A stretch of 64,000 nt of DNA from Caproiciproducens faecalis (GTDB lineage Bacteria > Bacillota > Clostridia > Oscillospirales > Acutalibacteraceae): the NCBI RefSeq assembly GCF_019448085.1, contig NZ_JAGFNZ010000001.1:806001-870000 (forward strand). The letters run 5' to 3'. Position numbers and translations under genes: made by a program. Shown here one piece after another: positions 47,200 to 54,276 of the stretch. Numbering within the stretch: the first letter of the stretch is position 1; each line of letters opens with the position of its first letter. A model generated the notes under the pieces. That model saw only the letters and a list, made by a program, of their open reading frames with translations, had not been told where the DNA came from and did not search any database.

Positions 47200-47239
47200 A
47201 TCCCCCGCTGGCCTATTGGCTGACGGGGGATTTTTTATT
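47200..47239 (+). terminator. terminator
   Basis: ATCCCCCG pairs with CGGGGGAT around CTGGCCTATTGGCTGA, followed by TTTTTTATTT. It ends the transcript of the 60-residue gene. From 47240 to 47474 no gene or structure is apparent. Confidence 0.85.
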
Positions 47240-47474
47240 TAATCATCAAAACTCATTTGATCGTCAAGCCCAAAACGCTTATTAAATAATTAATAAATTC
47301 GTCCCAGCTATTACTTATTTTCATTAATGTAATTACACTTGCTATGTGTTTATCCAGATGTGGAATTCCCGTATCATATGTTACTAATTGGTGAAACATA
47401 GGTGTAAAACAGAAAGTTGCTACGCCAGTAAACTGATTAAACTCGGAACCTTCTTTGTGGCGCTAGATTAATGA

Positions 47475-47503
47475 TTGACAACAGCTGAAAGCAATGCTAT
47501 ATT
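47475..47503 (+). promoter_or_regulatory. strong sigma-A promoter of the mutS2-like gene
   Basis: TTGACA (47475-47480), a 17-base spacer and TATATT (47498-47503). The start site would be near 47510, giving a leader of about 455 nt before the ATG at 47965, unusually long. Confidence 0.8.
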
Positions 47504-47536
47504 ATAGTCATATCCCTGATTGAAAGGATGGTTTTC

Positions 47537-47572
47537 ATGTCGGATTTGTCTGTAAAGGTGAACAACAACTAA
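47537..47572 (+). CDS. leader peptide of the mutS2-like gene
   Basis: An 11-codon ORF, MSDLSVKVNNN, begins 27 nt after the predicted start of transcription. GAAAGGA (47522-47528) lies 8 bases before its ATG, a good ribosome site. It ends with three consecutive Asn codons, then TAA. It sits upstream of at least three alternative hairpins and two terminators. The arrangement fits ribosome-dependent transcription attenuation, as for antibiotic-inducible ABC-F and Erm genes. Translation is not proven. Confidence 0.6.
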   Translation: MSDLSVKVNNN

Positions 47573-47579
47573 ATAAGTT

Positions 47580-47770
47580 GTGAAAGGTGATAACAGGCGC
47601 AGAATGGATCTGCATTTTTTGTTATGCCTTTCTGATGACGCTGACTTAACAGCGCTGTCGGACATCTACCTTACAGACTGCTTCCATGCGGCTTATTAGC
47701 CGTGATATAACCATCCAGTTATATATTTTGTTGCATGAACTATTGAACATCTATTTTCTATGCAACAATG
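47580..47770 (+). promoter_or_regulatory. attenuator leader with alternative hairpins
   Basis: Downstream of the leader peptide come: an ATAACA/TGTTAT stem enclosing GCAGA/TCTGC (about 47592-47624) with a T-run; CGCTGA/..CAGCG; CGGC/GCCG; ATATAAC/GTTATAT followed by ATTTTG (about 47704-47729); and TTGTTGCAT / ATGCAACAA (47728-47768). Several are mutually exclusive. The set reads as an RNA switch that responds to the ribosome's position on the leader peptide. Confidence 0.6.
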
Positions 47771-47774
47771 GAGT

Positions 47775-47805
47775 GTAGTGGGTTTGTCCCATTACGCTTT
47801 TTTTA
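47775..47805 (+). terminator. attenuator terminator 1
   Basis: GTAGTGGG pairs with CCCATTAC around TTTGT, followed by GCTTTTTTTATTT. It lies 160 bp upstream of the mutS2-like start codon, so it must be bypassed for expression. Confidence 0.8.
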
Positions 47806-47821
47806 TTTATACTGATGAATT

Positions 47822-47950
47822 ATGCCCACAGGAGCATTCTGCCATTTCCAAATAACGCAACAGTCGAGCACTTTTTTCACGTCTCGGAAAAATTACTCTT
47901 CGCGTTTTGGAAATGTCGGTAGATGTCACCTGTGGGTATTTTTTTATTGA
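47822..47950 (+). terminator. attenuator terminator 2, long rod hairpin
   Basis: CCCACAGG (47825-47832) pairs with CCTGTGGG (47929-47936), and internally ATTTCCAAA (47844-47852) pairs with TTTTGGAAAT (47905-47914). The structure is closed by TATTTTTTTATT and ends just before the ribosome site TAGGAG of the mutS2-like gene. A T-rich break inside the loop (CACTTTTTTCAC) suggests a possible alternative fold. Confidence 0.8.
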
Positions 47951-47964
47951 TAGGAGTAATCTAG

Positions 47965-49908
47965 ATGAATTCATCAGAAAAAATATTAGAATACGAGCAA
48001 ATCAAAGAAATGCTTTGTGACCATGCTCTGTCTGAACGCGCACGTAGGCGGCTAGCTGCATTATCACCTTATATGGATGAAAGTGAGTGTCATCGAAAAA
48101 TGGATGAAACCACTGCTGCGAGGAAAATCCTTGATGCATGCGGCACACCGCCTTTAACCGCCATGACGCAAGTCGATCAGATTTTGACTCTCTGTCAAGC
48201 CGGTTCCATGTTGGTTCCCGAACAGTTATTATCAGTTGTCCAATTTATCCTGTCCTGCAACCGAATCAAGTCCTACCTCAAAAAGGCAGAAATGCTGGAC
48301 GGCACGATTGCCTGCTATGGAAAGAGCATGTACGATTTGCCTGAACTCCAGCAGGAAATCGAGCGGTGTATCCGCAATGAGCAGGTGGACAGCGCCGCAA
48401 GTTCCGACCTGAGAGACGTACGGCGAAAAGTCGAAACAGTCAAGGCACAGATACAAACGAAGCTGAATGATATTTTGCGCAGCAAAAAGCAGTGGTTTTC
48501 GGACGACGCGGTCGTGACACGAGGCGGCCGTTTTGCCCTGCCGGTGAAAAAAGAATATAAAAATAAATTTTCCGGAAGCGTACTGGGAATTTCGGGTACC
48601 GGCGGCACTTACTTTATGGAGCCCAGCTCTGTGACAAAACTGCAGGAAGAGTTGTCATCACTGCAAATCGAAGAGGAAAACGAAGTTCGCAGAATCCTTT
48701 ACACGCTGTCTGCGCTGGTAGATGACAATCGTTCTGAATTAATGAGAAATATAGAAGCCGTTGAAACGCTGGATGTTGTATTTGCCAAAGCAAAGCTCAG
48801 CGCTCATATGGATGCCGTTCCGGTTTCCATAACCGCCGACCGAAAAATATGCATTCGGAAAGGTCGTCATCCATTGATTGACAGAAACATCTGCGTGCCG
48901 TTGGATTTTGAGCTGGACGGCGACTGTTCAGGCGTAGTCATCACCGGCCCCAACACCGGCGGAAAAACCGTCGCTCTGAAAACAGTAGGGCTACTCTCCA
49001 TGATGGCGCAAAGCGGCCTGCATATTCCGGCGGACGCATCCAGCATCCTGTGTATGCACAATGCCTACCTGTGCGATATTGGCGACGGGCAAAGCATTGC
49101 TGAGAATTTGTCCACTTTCTCCGCCCACATGACCAATATCATTGAAATCCTGCGACAGACAACCCGTGAAAGTCTTGTTCTGCTGGATGAGTTAGGTTCC
49201 GGCACCGACCCTGCGGAAGGCATGGGAATCGCCATTGCTGTGCTGGATGAACTGCGTGTCAAGGGCTGTCTGTTTATTGCAACCACGCATTACCCAGAGG
49301 TCAAGGATTACGCCGATTCTGCCCTTGGCATGACAAACGCGCGCATGGCGTTTGACCGCGAAACCCTCAACCCCACCTATCGGCTGGAATTGGGCAAAGC
49401 CGGGGAAAGCTGTGCGCTCTATATTGCAAAGCGCCTCGGACTGCCACCCAGCCTTTTGGAACGAGCATATCAGGAAGCCTATCGGAAAAAGGAACGCAAC
49501 AGCCCCCTTCCGGATTTTCAGTTGAATTCCGGTTGTGCCGATACGGAACCTGCCGCGCTGCCTGTCTCAAAAATCCAGAAAAGCAAACCGGCAAAGCCCG
49601 TTTCCACTCATGCTGTAAAATTCCAATTAGGCGACAGCGTCTTGATTTACCCCGAAAAAAGAATTGGTATCGTATTTCATCAAGCGAACGAGCATGGAGA
49701 AATCGGGGTACAGATTAAGGGCGAAAAGGAGTGGGTCAGCCATAAGAGGCTAGAACTAAAAACACCTGCCAGCGAGCTGTACCCGCCTGATTACGACTTT
49801 TCCATTGTATTTGATACTGTTTCTAATCGCAAGGCAAGACACGTTATGGGGAAGCGGCATGATCCGAATCTGAGTATCCAGTGTGATGAAAAAGATATCG
49901 CCAAATGA
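47965..49908 (+). CDS. MutS2-like ATPase lacking the Smr domain
   Basis: This is a 647-residue MutS-family ATPase of the MutS2 type. Core helices (about 1-290) precede Walker A GPNTGGKT (about 329-336), Walker B SLVLLDELGSGTDPAEGMG (about 405-420), and the family motif TTHYPEVKDYA. After a linker, a small beta domain (FQLGDSVLIYPEKRIGIVF) and ELYPPDYDFSIVFDTVSNRKARH end the protein. There is no Smr nuclease domain (no LDLRG or HGxG), and it is about 140 residues shorter than B. subtilis MutS2. MutS2 acts on collided ribosomes or recombination intermediates. The long attenuator in front makes a drug-inducible ribosome-protection role attractive. Confidence 0.88.
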   Translation: MNSSEKILEYEQIKEMLCDHALSERARRRLAALSPYMDESECHRKMDETTAARKILDACGTPPLTAMTQVDQILTLCQAGSMLVPEQLLSVVQFILSCNRIKSYLKKAEMLDGTIACYGKSMYDLPELQQEIERCIRNEQVDSAASSDLRDVRRKVETVKAQIQTKLNDILRSKKQWFSDDAVVTRGGRFALPVKKEYKNKFSGSVLGISGTGGTYFMEPSSVTKLQEELSSLQIEEENEVRRILYTLSALVDDNRSELMRNIEAVETLDVVFAKAKLSAHMDAVPVSITADRKICIRKGRHPLIDRNICVPLDFELDGDCSGVVITGPNTGGKTVALKTVGLLSMMAQSGLHIPADASSILCMHNAYLCDIGDGQSIAENLSTFSAHMTNIIEILRQTTRESLVLLDELGSGTDPAEGMGIAIAVLDELRVKGCLFIATTHYPEVKDYADSALGMTNARMAFDRETLNPTYRLELGKAGESCALYIAKRLGLPPSLLERAYQEAYRKKERNSPLPDFQLNSGCADTEPAALPVSKIQKSKPAKPVSTHAVKFQLGDSVLIYPEKRIGIVFHQANEHGEIGVQIKGEKEWVSHKRLELKTPASELYPPDYDFSIVFDTVSNRKARHVMGKRHDPNLSIQCDEKDIAK

Positions 49909-49970
49909 AAACGAAGGGGATCCCAAAGAAATAGCCGCCTTTGAGCTGGCACTCAAAGACGGCAGAACCT

Positions 49971-50126
49971 TCATTGATTAATTACTCTTTGGTATGTTTC
50001 ATTTCCGCATTTTGGGCAGTTTGGGAGAGAATGGGAATCATCATTGAGCACAACGATTTCACCACATGTTTTGCATTTATAGCGTCCTAGCCCAGGCTTT
50101 TCTCCTGCCTTGTCCAACTTGTCCAT
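49971..50126 (-). CDS. small zinc-ribbon protein
   Basis: This is a 51-residue protein, MDKLDKAGEKPGLGRYKCKT, with CKTCGE and CPKCGNETY forming a CxxC...CxxC zinc ribbon. It resembles short clostridial zinc-ribbon proteins of the form GEKPG.G.Y.C..CG. AGAAGGCG precedes the ATG on its strand. The function is unknown. It is the last of three small genes on this strand between mutS2-like and ku. Confidence 0.75.
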   Translation of the reverse strand: MDKLDKAGEKPGLGRYKCKTCGEIVVLNDDSHSLPNCPKCGNETYQRVINQ

Positions 50127-50169
50127 ATAATCGCCTTCTTTCACAACGATATTCTATACGGCGGAGGAA

Positions 50170-50412
50170 TTACTTATTCGGAACCGTGTCATCAGTATTT
50201 TTATCTCTAGGATTTTCTTTCGTATTGGTTGCTGATTCAACCGAATCAGAATTCGTATTACTCATTGTGGGGTCGCTATCTCTCGTACTTCCGTTTCGAG
50301 CACTTGACTCATCTTCCTGAGGAATAGGCATTGGTATCGGCACAGGAGCCGGGACTGTTGGCATAACCGAATCTGAAACTGGCGAATTTTTATTATTTTT
50401 TTTACTATTCAT
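50170..50412 (-). CDS. low-complexity hypothetical protein
   Basis: This is an 80-residue protein starting MNSKKNNKNSPVSDS, with a proline-rich stretch, VPAPVPIPMPIPQ, and a Ser/Thr/Asn/Asp-rich acidic tail. It is probably disordered. AAAGGGGATG lies before ATG 50412. No homologue is recognised, so coding status rests on the ribosome site and composition. Confidence 0.45.
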   Translation of the reverse strand: MNSKKNNKNSPVSDSVMPTVPAPVPIPMPIPQEDESSARNGSTRDSDPTMSNTNSDSVESATNTKENPRDKNTDDTVPNK

Positions 50413-50895: not shown

Positions 50896-51714
50896 TTAAG
50901 CACCTTGCTTTTTTGTCGTCTTCTTTTTCGTGGACTCTTTCGTTGCTTTTCCCTCATTTTGTTTTTCAATACTGGCTTTCAGCGCATCCATAAGATTAAT
51001 AACTTTTCCGGTCTGCTCCTCGGAACTGGCGGCAACAACATCCTTGCCGGCAATTTTTGTTTCGATGAGTTCTTTGAGCCTGTCCTGATATTCATCTTTA
51101 TATTGAGACGGGTCAAAAGGCGTATCCATTGAGTTAATCAGCACTTGAGCCATTTTCAGCTCTTGTTCGTTGGGCTGCGGAATATCATAAGACTTTTGCA
51201 AATCTTTAATATCATCCTGATAAAACATGGTGGAAATCAACACCCCGTTCTTACGGGGAATAATCGCCATTAACGTGTCTTTTGTCCCCAAAACGGTCTT
51301 GCCTACTGCAATTTTCTGCTCATTCATCAGAGCAGACCGCAGAAGCTCAAACGCCTTTTCTCCACCTTTATCCGGCACTGCCTGATAGGTCTTATCATAA
51401 TAAACGGGTGAAATTTGATTTAATTGTGCGAAGTGCAGGATCTGAATCGATTTTTCCTTTTCAGTCTTGATTTTTTCTATTTCTTCATCCGATACAACGA
51501 CATAATGTTCCTTGTCATATTCGTAGCCTTTGATAATATCCTCACTTTTTAGCTCTTTCCCGCAATGGGCACAGGTCTTTTTATACCGCACACGACTCTG
51601 ATCATCTTTGTGCAGTTGATTAAAATGAATATCGTTATCCTGAGTGGCTGTGTACATGGAAATAGGGATTGCCACAAGTCCAAATGAAATAACGGAATGA
51701 TGTGATACCGGCAT
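50896..51714 (-). CDS. ku: bacterial Ku protein
   Basis: This is a 272-residue Ku homologue. MPVSHHSVISFGLVAIPISMY, NQLHKDDQSRVRYKKTCAHCGKE and GYEYDKEHYVVVSDEEIE are typical of bacterial Ku, followed by the bridge (QISPVYYDKTYQAVPDKGGEKAFELL) and a Lys-rich C-terminal tail (ATKESTKKKTTKKQGA) that contacts DNA. It binds double-strand breaks and recruits LigD, whose gene lies divergent 120 bp away. AGGTGAG precedes the ATG. Confidence 0.95.
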   Translation of the reverse strand: MPVSHHSVISFGLVAIPISMYTATQDNDIHFNQLHKDDQSRVRYKKTCAHCGKELKSEDIIKGYEYDKEHYVVVSDEEIEKIKTEKEKSIQILHFAQLNQISPVYYDKTYQAVPDKGGEKAFELLRSALMNEQKIAVGKTVLGTKDTLMAIIPRKNGVLISTMFYQDDIKDLQKSYDIPQPNEQELKMAQVLINSMDTPFDPSQYKDEYQDRLKELIETKIAGKDVVAASSEEQTGKVINLMDALKASIEKQNEGKATKESTKKKTTKKQGA

Positions 51715-51834
51715 AAACTCACCTCGTGTTTAGTTTAACCAAATAGCCGGAAAATACAACAAAAGAATAGATTACGCGAAGTAACAAATAATACCCAAAA
51801 GCACGCGATAGCTATTTACAAAAAGGTGATAGAT

Positions 51835-54276
51835 GTGGCTACAAAATTAGAGGAATACAACCGGAAAAGAAATTTTGATAAAACCGAAGAACCTGTGGGT
51901 ACATCGGAGAATCCCGAAAAACACCTGAAATTTGTGGTTCAGCACCATATGGCGCGCAGGGACCATTTCGATTTTCGCCTTGAATGGGACGGAGCATTAT
52001 TAAGCTGGGCGGTACCCAAGGGGCCTTCTTATCATCTCCGTGACAAAAGGCTTGCCGTTAAAGTGGAGGATCACCCCTTAGAATACAGAAACTTTGAAGG
52101 GCTGATTCCTAAGGGCGAGTATGGCGGCGGAACCGTCATGATTTGGGATGAAGGAACCTGGCAGCCGCAGACGGATGCAGCGGAAGGGCTGAGTAAAGGT
52201 TCGCTTAAATTCATACTGAATGGAAAAAGGTTAAAGGGTAAATGGGCTCTAGTCCGAATGAAAGCAAAAGCAGGTGAAGATCGGGACAACTGGCTTCTTC
52301 TTAAAGAAAAAGACGGTTATGAAAAAAGCGCCGATGGGATTTCCGAATTTAACACAAGCATCCGAACCGGACGCACTATGGAGGAAATTGAAAAAGGTGA
52401 GGGCGAAAAATTCGTACACAATCCTTTTAAGAAGGTAGATGCGCAGCTTGCCAAACTTGTTTCCACAGTCCCGGAAGACGAGGATTGGCTCTTTGAAGTA
52501 AAGTATGACGGTTACCGGATTCTTGCGTTTTTAGAGGGCAGCAGCGCTTTGCTGCAAACCCGCAACGGCAATGATTATACGGATCGGTTTCAGGATGTTG
52601 CCGATTCCCTCATTGATTGGGCTGCCGGAAGAGCGATGGTTCTGGACGGTGAAATGACGGTTACAGACGAGAACGGTAAGACGGATTTTCAGGCTCTGCA
52701 AAACTTTATGAGGAATCCAAAGAGCAAAAACCTAACTTACATCATCTTTGATCTTCTGGCGTTGGACGGAACAGATTTAAGAAATCATCCTCTGATCGAA
52801 AGAAAAGAAAAGCTGGAAGCTCTTATGAGGAATTCGCCAAAAAATCTCCATTATAGCCAGCATGTCAAAGGGAATGGGAAAGCAAGCTTTGCCGCGGCAT
52901 CGCAGGCTGATTTGGAAGGCATCGTGGGCAAGAAAGCCGATTCTGTATACAGTGGTACAAGAAACGGCGACTGGATTAAACTGAAATGTGATAAAAGGCA
53001 GGAATTCGTCATTGGAGGATATACCTTATCTGATAAAAAAGCAAGCGGAGTAAGCTCACTGTTGCTTGGCGTTTATGAAGAAGAAAAGCTGGTCTATGTT
53101 GGGCGTGCCGGAACTGGTTTGAGCGCCCGCCGCGTTGAGGAACTTGCGAATAAATTTAAAAGTATAGAAGCGGAGTCGTCTCCTTTCAACCCAGCACCAC
53201 AGGCGAGAACACACGAAAAAATTACATGGATTGAACCACAGCTGGTTGCGGAAATCAAATTTGCACAATGGACGGAAGAAAACCTGTTACGGCAGGCAAG
53301 CTTTAAAGGTTTGCGAACGGATAAAACCCCAAAGGATGTTAGAAAGGAAAAAGCGGATAATGAGACACAGCCTCAAGTATCCGCCGAAGATGTGGAAAAG
53401 CCCATGGAAACACCCGGAAAAGACCTTATCATAGAAGGTGTTAAGATTACCCATCCGGACAAAATTATGTTTGACGACCCGGATATAATAAAAGCGGATG
53501 TCATCCGGTATTACCAAAAAATAGCGGTGCGCATGCTGCCCTATGTATCGCATCGAATTTTAAGCATTGTGCGTTGCCCTAAAGGAATATCGGAGACCTG
53601 TTTCTTTAAAAAGCATCCCGGCCCGGGCAGTAAAGGAATCGTCACCGTATCCATTCCAGCGAATGACGGCGAAATGGAAGAATACTTTTATATTGAAAAT
53701 GTATCCGGTCTTATATCGGAAGCACAGATGGGCACACTGGAATTTCATACTTGGGGAAGCAATGTGGAAAATCTTGAAAAACCCGATGTAATGGTATTTG
53801 ATTTGGATCCGGACGAGGGAATGGATTTAGCTACGATACGCCAAGGCGTAAAGGATCTGAAAAGCATTTTGTCTGAACTTTCGATTAAGTCGTACCTAAA
53901 AACCAGCGGCGGCAAGGGCTACCATGTAGTTGTTCCTTTTAAACCTGCTGCTTCGTGGGATGTGTTTCACGATTTTGCAAAACGCGTTGCCGAAGTAATG
54001 GAACAAAAGTGGCCTGACCGCTACACCAGCAACATCCGAAAGGAAAAGCGAAAAAACAAAATCTTTATCGATTGGATTCGCAACGGCAGAGGTGCCACAA
54101 GTGTTTCACCCTATTCCATAAGAGCGCGAAAAGGAGCCAGAGTGTCCATGCCTATCGCTTGGGATGAATTAGACACAGTTGCTCCGGACGGTATCAGCAT
54201 GGCGGATGCATTTCTTAGAATCAGCAAAGACGACCCATGGAAAGATTTTTTTCAAAATAATCAAATATTAAAATAA
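51835..54276 (+). CDS. ligD: DNA ligase D (NHEJ), PE-LIG-POL order
   Basis: This is an 813-residue, multi-domain end-joining ligase. The 3'-phosphoesterase domain (about 25-170) has FVVQHHMARRDHFDFRLEWDG and GEYGGGTVMIWDEG. The ATP-dependent ligase domain (about 210-500) has the nucleotidyl lysine near 223 in FEVKYDGYRI and VLDGEMTV. The primase/polymerase domain (about 535-805) has MVFDLDPDEGMD and YLKTSGGKGYHVVVPF. GTG 51835 is preferred over GTG 51826, with AAGGTGAT upstream. It acts with the divergent Ku. Confidence 0.95.
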   Translation: MATKLEEYNRKRNFDKTEEPVGTSENPEKHLKFVVQHHMARRDHFDFRLEWDGALLSWAVPKGPSYHLRDKRLAVKVEDHPLEYRNFEGLIPKGEYGGGTVMIWDEGTWQPQTDAAEGLSKGSLKFILNGKRLKGKWALVRMKAKAGEDRDNWLLLKEKDGYEKSADGISEFNTSIRTGRTMEEIEKGEGEKFVHNPFKKVDAQLAKLVSTVPEDEDWLFEVKYDGYRILAFLEGSSALLQTRNGNDYTDRFQDVADSLIDWAAGRAMVLDGEMTVTDENGKTDFQALQNFMRNPKSKNLTYIIFDLLALDGTDLRNHPLIERKEKLEALMRNSPKNLHYSQHVKGNGKASFAAASQADLEGIVGKKADSVYSGTRNGDWIKLKCDKRQEFVIGGYTLSDKKASGVSSLLLGVYEEEKLVYVGRAGTGLSARRVEELANKFKSIEAESSPFNPAPQARTHEKITWIEPQLVAEIKFAQWTEENLLRQASFKGLRTDKTPKDVRKEKADNETQPQVSAEDVEKPMETPGKDLIIEGVKITHPDKIMFDDPDIIKADVIRYYQKIAVRMLPYVSHRILSIVRCPKGISETCFFKKHPGPGSKGIVTVSIPANDGEMEEYFYIENVSGLISEAQMGTLEFHTWGSNVENLEKPDVMVFDLDPDEGMDLATIRQGVKDLKSILSELSIKSYLKTSGGKGYHVVVPFKPAASWDVFHDFAKRVAEVMEQKWPDRYTSNIRKEKRKNKIFIDWIRNGRGATSVSPYSIRARKGARVSMPIAWDELDTVAPDGISMADAFLRISKDDPWKDFFQNNQILK

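Follow-up and report, generated by a model that had tools for sequence, protein, structure and literature searches.

The window, a 64,000-nucleotide stretch of Caproiciproducens faecalis DNA (contig NZ_JAGFNZ010000001.1, positions 806,001 to 870,000), carries on its plus strand a gene (47965..49908) for a 647-aa MutS2 paralogue without an Smr domain, preceded by a promoter, a short open reading frame (ORF) and successive terminators. We suggest that a transcription attenuator operated by the translating ribosome probably controls this second MutS2, and that the protein splits drug-stalled ribosomes. The control mechanism is well supported in silico; drug-inducible ribosome splitting by the window protein is what we infer from the mutant data on Bacillus subtilis MutS2 and from the fit to the HflXr precedent. 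If true, this would be the second ribosome-splitting, attenuator-controlled antibiotic defence after HflXr, the closest case found, and would come from a different ATPase family; the role of MutS2 without Smr would then become directly testable.

All elements of the unit named below lie on the plus strand. An extended -10 sigma-70-type promoter (47475..47503; TTGACA, 17 nt, TATATT, with TG before the -10) scores 11/12, in line with the near-consensus promoter claimed in the initial annotation, which was made from the letters of the DNA. It is the sole 11/12 site in a promoter scan of 47200-50200 and is kept at the same place in a genome of the same genus (L005); the scan gave 5 promoter-like sites against 5.0 expected by shuffling and alone is no proof. 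The promoter is followed by a Shine–Dalgarno (SD)-like AAAGGATGG (47523..47531) and by the 11-codon leader ORF MSDLSVKVNNN* (47537..47572), so that the leader ORF with its ribosome site was also described correctly. The same holds for the 455-nt structured leader with two strong terminators: positions 47510-47964 fold at -155.3 kcal/mol (z -8.5), and 0/100 shuffles were equally low. The terminators are T2 (47770..47810; hairpin 47770-47800 and a T-run, -17.6 kcal/mol) and T3 (47825..47948; 47825-47936 and a T-run, -41.8 kcal/mol), which adjoins the gene start, and a weak early terminator-like hairpin, T1 (47599..47613, -4.6 kcal/mol), lies before them. The terminator scan alone found 3 against 3.3 expected, which is not significant. 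An SD-led short ORF thus stands between a promoter and an intrinsic terminator, the arrangement of an attenuator.

Three segments form the predicted switch. Segment A (47548..47560) consists of leader codons and is the 5′ strand of an anti-antiterminator; segment B (TACCTTACAGAC and TGCTTC, 47667..47684) is the predicted partner either of A or of the 5′ arms of T2 and T3; and segment C (GGAGCATTCTG, 47831..47841), a motif that recurs in relatives, lies in the 5′ arm of T3 and is by folding the antiterminator partner of B. With the window leader free, P(A:B) is 0.87, P(T3) is 1.00 and P(B:C) is 0.00. With the leader masked, P(B:C) is 0.81-0.86 for transcript ends 47845-47915 and 0.64 against 0.26 for T3 at the end 47940, and B captures the 5′ arm of T2 and holds it until the 3′ arm is nearly complete. 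Masking that mimics a stalled ribosome is therefore predicted to switch the fold from terminator to antiterminator, that is, ribosome occupancy of the ORF sets mutually exclusive structures in silico, with a weaker effect family-wide.

Based on these folds, we suggest the following pathway for control of the gene. In unstressed cells, the leader codons of A would pair with B, T3 (and T2) would form, and transcription would end before the gene. If early elongation is blocked, by a drug or otherwise, the ribosome would stall within the initial codons, near Ser-Val. The stalled ribosome would cover A, and the freed B would capture the 5′ arms of T2 and T3 in turn, after which RNA polymerase could read through into the gene. 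The protein would split drug-stalled ribosomes in the manner of B. subtilis MutS2, without the Smr collision sensor; ribosome rescue would restore leader translation, and the gene would be shut again.

The leader was compared among relatives of the window protein. The merged collection of 112 loci contained 105 unique ones, 101 of which had at least 290 nt upstream. Of 39 loci in the first set, L080 (contig end, no ORF) was dropped before the counts; of 80 loci in the named collection, L157, L168 and L176 (no ORF with the tail) as well as L128, L149 and L179 (no start set) were dropped. Starts were chosen by a script on the SD score, and by hand for L094, L108, L140, L155, L161, L172, L177 and L185. 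A strict test demanded, within 600 nt, an SD, a promoter of at least 9/12, an ORF of 3-26 codons and one or more intrinsic terminators downstream. It was passed by 34/38 members of the first set, by 56/63 named loci whose upstream sequence was 300 nt or longer, and by 89/101 unique members after merging, setting of starts by hand and removal of duplicates. Among the controls, 1/25 ordinary MutS2 genes, 12/101 shuffled leaders and 17/224 neighbouring ORFs passed, the latter being those reached before the script's stop at 220 and part of the ORFs in 80 loci. Strict leaders in which [S/A/T]V begins at one of residues 2-5 were found in 70/101 members and in 0/101 shuffles; the 1/224 neighbouring ORFs with such a leader was itself a MutS2 leader. 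The initial annotation had set leader conservation beforehand as a point on which its claim depended; the leader is present in most relatives, and the observation in the window is therefore beyond chance.

The leaders of relatives range from MSVLSVMVIIN down to bare MSV and include MSVR, MESVR and MLSVL. For each locus, one leader was picked by a score favouring promoter strength, ATG and the [S/A/T]V motif. Among the 89 picked leaders, 88 are 3-13 aa long and one has 26 aa; the second residue is Ser in 57 leaders and Leu in 26, [S/G/A/T]V in a slightly wider window matches 74, and the last residue is Asn in 49. The Ser codons come from both families (TCN 56 and AGY 11 of 70), which argues for selection on the peptide. 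In L136, the leader is seemingly shortened to MLA* with the downstream RNA element still recognisable, possibly a decayed or re-tuned leader.

The pairing of leader and downstream RNA is also conserved. In the longer leaders (10-12 aa), the codons GTCTGTAAAGG (A) pair with CCTTACAGAC (B), and RNAalifold, run unaided on 24 leaders, returned this A:B helix alone, with compensatory changes. In the alignment, 93.9% of the helix cells pair, compared with 26.6-40.5% when the strands are slid, and covariation and double-changed cells were above all shuffles (500/500). In a swap test with 33 leaders, own pairing had -10.85 and swapped pairing -9.72 kcal/mol (p 0.003), with rows kept in which the motif-placed B site was visibly wrong (e.g., L119, L130, L134, L158 and L169). 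Short leaders (6-8 aa) use their 3′ end, often GTTCTTAACTAA, for pairing with TTAGTTAAGAAC located 75-275 nt downstream, and covarying pair forms such as GTTCTGAAC/GTTCAGAAC occur; their swap test, from which L093, L110 and L112 were left out, gave -13.8 for own pairing against -10.5 (p 2e-5, 19/22 sequences). These swap tests and the alignment counts were used instead of the duplex of the whole leader against shuffled downstream DNA, which was uninformative for longer leaders. Family-wide, 11.6 leader bases were paired downstream, compared with 7.2 in shuffles (p 2e-11).

Several points weigh against this reading. The background of the strict test is 4-12%, and 12/101 members failed it; in eight of them (L075, L086, L087, L095, L111, L141, L164 and L181) a leader is visible by eye with the promoter or SD weak or cut off, and in the four others (L112, L171, L172 and L180) no leader was seen. 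The [S/A/T]V pattern was chosen after the leaders were seen, and the script that took one leader per locus rewarded it, so the composition counts lean to it. The A:B structure was derived from the same alignment in which covariation was counted, and relatedness of the sequences inflates covariation; the number of pairs with a double change (3; 152/500 shuffles) and that of pair types (13; 65/500) were not above shuffles. In seven short leaders with several GAAC sites, the B site was set by eye, which favours own pairing. With the leader masked, T2 re-forms (0.84-0.91; 0.84 at 47800), and at the end 47948, with the full T3 and its T-run, the fold returns to the terminator with P(T3) of 0.92; as both re-form in the masked fold, read-through must rest on co-transcriptional kinetics. 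Over the 89 strict members, the gain in capture of a terminator arm from masking was weaker (2.65 against 1.02 expected pairs, p 0.003) and exceeded 2 pairs in 36/89 members compared with 22/89 shuffled ones. Finally, SMR/KOW mutants of B. subtilis MutS2 show reduced binding to collided ribosomes and are intermediate in the reporter assay (PMC10897456).

The encoded protein is a MutS2-like protein without Smr, as the initial annotation stated. It matches TIGR01069 (mutS2) with 580.8 bits against a cut-off of 400, Walker A (328-335) and Walker B (406-410) are both intact, and Pfam finds MutS_V as the sole MutS domain and no Smr. PF01713 (Smr) was absent in 9/9 members of the Smr-less type at E 0.01; the ordinary MutS2 of the same genome has Smr and MSSS by Pfam. 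Pfam MSSS itself gave no match in the window protein. A KOW-like domain at about 553-600 was found by profile-profile comparison (95.6%, 46 columns), with five strands at 558-600 in the structure model, and is followed by the tail of the clade, LYPPDYDF (605-612) ... RK (622-623). The closest sequence and fold matches are MutS2 structures, including the complex of B. subtilis MutS2 with a disome (7qv3). With regard to other families, Pfam gave MutS_V only and NCBIfam no ABC-F model, and no HflX-type GTPase family was among the NCBIfam and Pfam matches of the protein. It resembles the KamC ATPase (NF052383, a 508-position model), a MutS2-like protein without Smr, over the ATPase and lever region, but differs from it in scoring 210.8 bits, below the cut-off of 300. 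PADLOC gave no match in the window.

The proposed function draws on published systems. B. subtilis MutS2 splits disomes in an ATPase-dependent manner; its Walker B mutant loses activity and is sensitive to erythromycin, and the erythromycin sensitivity of SMR/KOW mutants is only very modest (PMC10897456). The window protein shares the ATPase core and KOW, from which disome splitting may be extended to it (PMC10897456); unlike B. subtilis MutS2, it has no Smr, a conserved C-terminal tail and attenuator control, and the Smr-less type groups apart from ordinary MutS2 in a quick tree. The Walker motifs and KOW-like domain, the matches to MutS2 structures and the modest sensitivity of SMR mutants, as well as the recurrence of this leader upstream of ABC-transporter and acetyltransferase genes (see below), make the function well motivated. 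Ribosome protection or rescue under drug stress, as proposed initially, would thus be well motivated, while the stalling-type control logic in the same proposal is strongly supported by comparison, folding and covariation.

The closest likeness is to HflXr (Listeria lmo0762, behind rli80), also a paralogue existing alongside the ordinary copy of a ribosome-splitting factor and controlled by a transcription attenuator that depends on the ribosome and has a short ORF and an anti-antiterminator (PMC6310831). HflXr is an HflX GTPase with a 14-aa leader containing RLR (PMC6310831), whereas here the protein is a MutS2-type ATPase, the picked leaders are 3-13 aa long (26 aa in one case) and centre on Ser-Val, and the tandem terminators are predicted to share one antiterminator strand. 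Antibiotic-resistance (ARE) ABC-F genes share the very short leader and premature termination, which is relieved by drug-stalled ribosomes there and presumably here (PMC9226507, PMC10201436). Their uORFs are MIN in vmlR, MR[I/M] in cplR, MK[L/Q] in VmlR2 and MAGN in lsaA (PMC9226507, PMC10201436); the effector family and the leader consensus differ from ours. No report of an attenuator before MutS2 was found in the open-access literature, which was covered in part, and a prior mention is possible.

As for the inducer, sensing of macrolides by RLR was set aside, as this motif of macrolide-sensing leaders is absent from the window leader. Since RLR is missing, macrolides seem no likelier to be the inducer than drugs of the peptidyl-transferase centre (phenicols, oxazolidinones, lincosamides or pleuromutilins). 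A 2026 review states that chloramphenicol causes arrest when Ala, or to a lesser degree Ser, Gly or Thr, occupies the E site (PMC13410324), a preference that would match the Ser/Gly/Ala/Thr-Val context of the leaders.

Other explanations of the unit were weighed. The leader could sense general slowing of translation or a shortage of charged tRNA, as in trp-type attenuation, with no drug involved and the gene acting as a house-keeping stress factor. The Asn-Asn-Asn end of the window leader and the frequent final Asn (49/89) would suit this, but the Asn run is not conserved, MSV, MSVR, MESVR and MLSVL have no run of a single residue, and the recurrent part of the leader is Ser-Val near the start; we regard this explanation as rather unlikely. 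It is also quite improbable that the gene encodes a MutS paralogue for DNA repair or recombination with a long leader unrelated to drugs. Ku and a LigD-like ligase do follow within 2 kb, but other neighbours surround the unit in the same-genus genome, the sole MutS domain found by Pfam is MutS_V, the top sequence and fold matches are MutS2, including the disome-bound form, and a repair gene would leave the conserved stalling-type leader unexplained.

The terminator-like sites of the simple scan, no more numerous than in shuffles, would fit hairpins that merely end upstream transcription or insulate the gene, with the short ORF there by chance. We consider this very improbable, as 89/101 relatives show the promoter, SD-led ORF and terminator in this same order, A:B covaries, and the same element precedes other genes. 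A ligand-binding riboswitch, for which the high structure of the leader could speak, is hardly credible: no Rfam family reached its gathering score in the window, none was credible for the leader at E up to 5, and a predicted ORF, with codons that form one arm of the switch, makes up the conserved core. The attenuator operated by the translating ribosome is therefore the explanation that we prefer.

The same element was found before other genes with the covariance model R1, built from MutS2 leaders. R1 matched in 20/398 phylum genomes (E 0.05), with 11 matches at E <1e-10: eight before Smr-less MutS2 genes, which confirm nothing because the model was built from those sequences, and three elsewhere. 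In L190, the element (~1500-1780) with the leader MSVLSVMVVLN lies upstream of a GNAT acetyltransferase gene (Pfam); in L197 (MSVLYVMRFTTN), upstream of an ABC ATPase gene (Pfam ABC_tran); and in L196, with the leader MSVQSVMVISN, upstream of an ORF that resembles that of L197 by eye. As assembled, the genes of L190 and L197 seem to have broken frames, and the pieces were scanned separately. Weaker non-MutS2 matches had E 1.5e-4 to 0.013. Four of them (L198, L199, L200 and L202, ~1510-1530) carry the leader MSVIL and a terminator before one class I SAM methyltransferase family, a candidate inducible modification enzyme. Two more, from genomes of the window's family, have RsgA-type GTPase genes downstream of leader-like ORFs with terminators (L201, 1516-1846, MSVVFEVAFL; L212, 1500-2500, MSHLFAILG), and the RsgA-type gene of L201 (Pfam) is fused to an RNHCP domain. 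Family searches were made for L190, L197, L198 (against Pfam and NCBIfam) and L201; genes of L196, L199, L200, L202 and L212 were named by eye. Six of the 8 non-MutS2 loci tested passed the strict test, and L201 and L202 failed it. The matches L213 and L214 look like chance matches in coding sequence. Among 250 family genomes, 10 were matched by R1; two of these matches (G548 and G028) are MutS2 leaders absent from the model set. No convincing second copy was found in the window's genome by a crude pattern or by R1, whose sole other match there (E 0.14, at E up to 1) showed no leader by eye.

The element thus precedes genes of the kinds that typically serve in drug export, modification or ribosome handling. 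We tentatively put forward, as a possibility that is somewhat short of probable, a phylum-wide 'MSV' attenuator that would read stalling at a Ser/Gly/Ala/Thr-Val start and switch on ribosome-defence genes, namely Smr-less drug-resistance MutS2, efflux ABC ATPases, acetyltransferases, the methyltransferase family and RsgA GTPases, with one B strand disarming two successive terminators. This regulon draws on the three non-MutS2 matches at E <1e-10 and the weaker ones. The recurrence of the switch before most relatives examined suggests an inducible defence, so far undescribed, against inhibitors of protein synthesis, and the leader consensus can serve directly as a probe for stalling contexts and further inducible defence genes.

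The Smr-less type occurs in 5/150 genomes of the window's family, its own included, and each of them also has an ordinary MutS2. A profile of the C-terminal part matched in 31/398 sampled Bacillota genomes (E 1e-12). In the named collection, 538/596 pattern stretches among the matches listed encode relatives; the best 80 were kept, with loci from, e.g., Anaerocolumna, Desulfosporosinus, Ruminiclostridium, Herbinix and Neglectibacter. In a quick tree, 61 Smr-less members (taken from the 105 unique ones) and 26 ordinary MutS2, all from the window's family, lie on opposite sides of a branch with support 100. Compared with a 14.5-kb region of the same-genus genome, the window aligns only at 47455-49921, and the flanks and neighbours differ, which is why the gene appears to move together with its leader and promoter as a single unit (47455..49921; 86% over 2474 bp to L005/L186). 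Among IMG/VR viral contigs, 0 of 13 pattern stretches encode a relative, and a plasmid DNA search with the leader gave no match. A plasmid protein search returned 72 records, five with at least 80% query coverage; two annotated records of relatives carry only the names 'endonuclease MutS2' and 'DNA mismatch repair protein MutS'. A search of a phage collection returned 33 records; the two examined are unannotated, unverified wastewater contigs, which we take to be host DNA. The wastewater contig L217 encodes a Smr-less MutS2 with the leader MSVAGI.

Just downstream of the unit, within 2 kb, lies a divergent pair of non-homologous end joining genes by Pfam: Ku (50896-51714, minus strand) and a LigD-like ligase/polymerase/phosphoesterase (51826-54276, plus strand).

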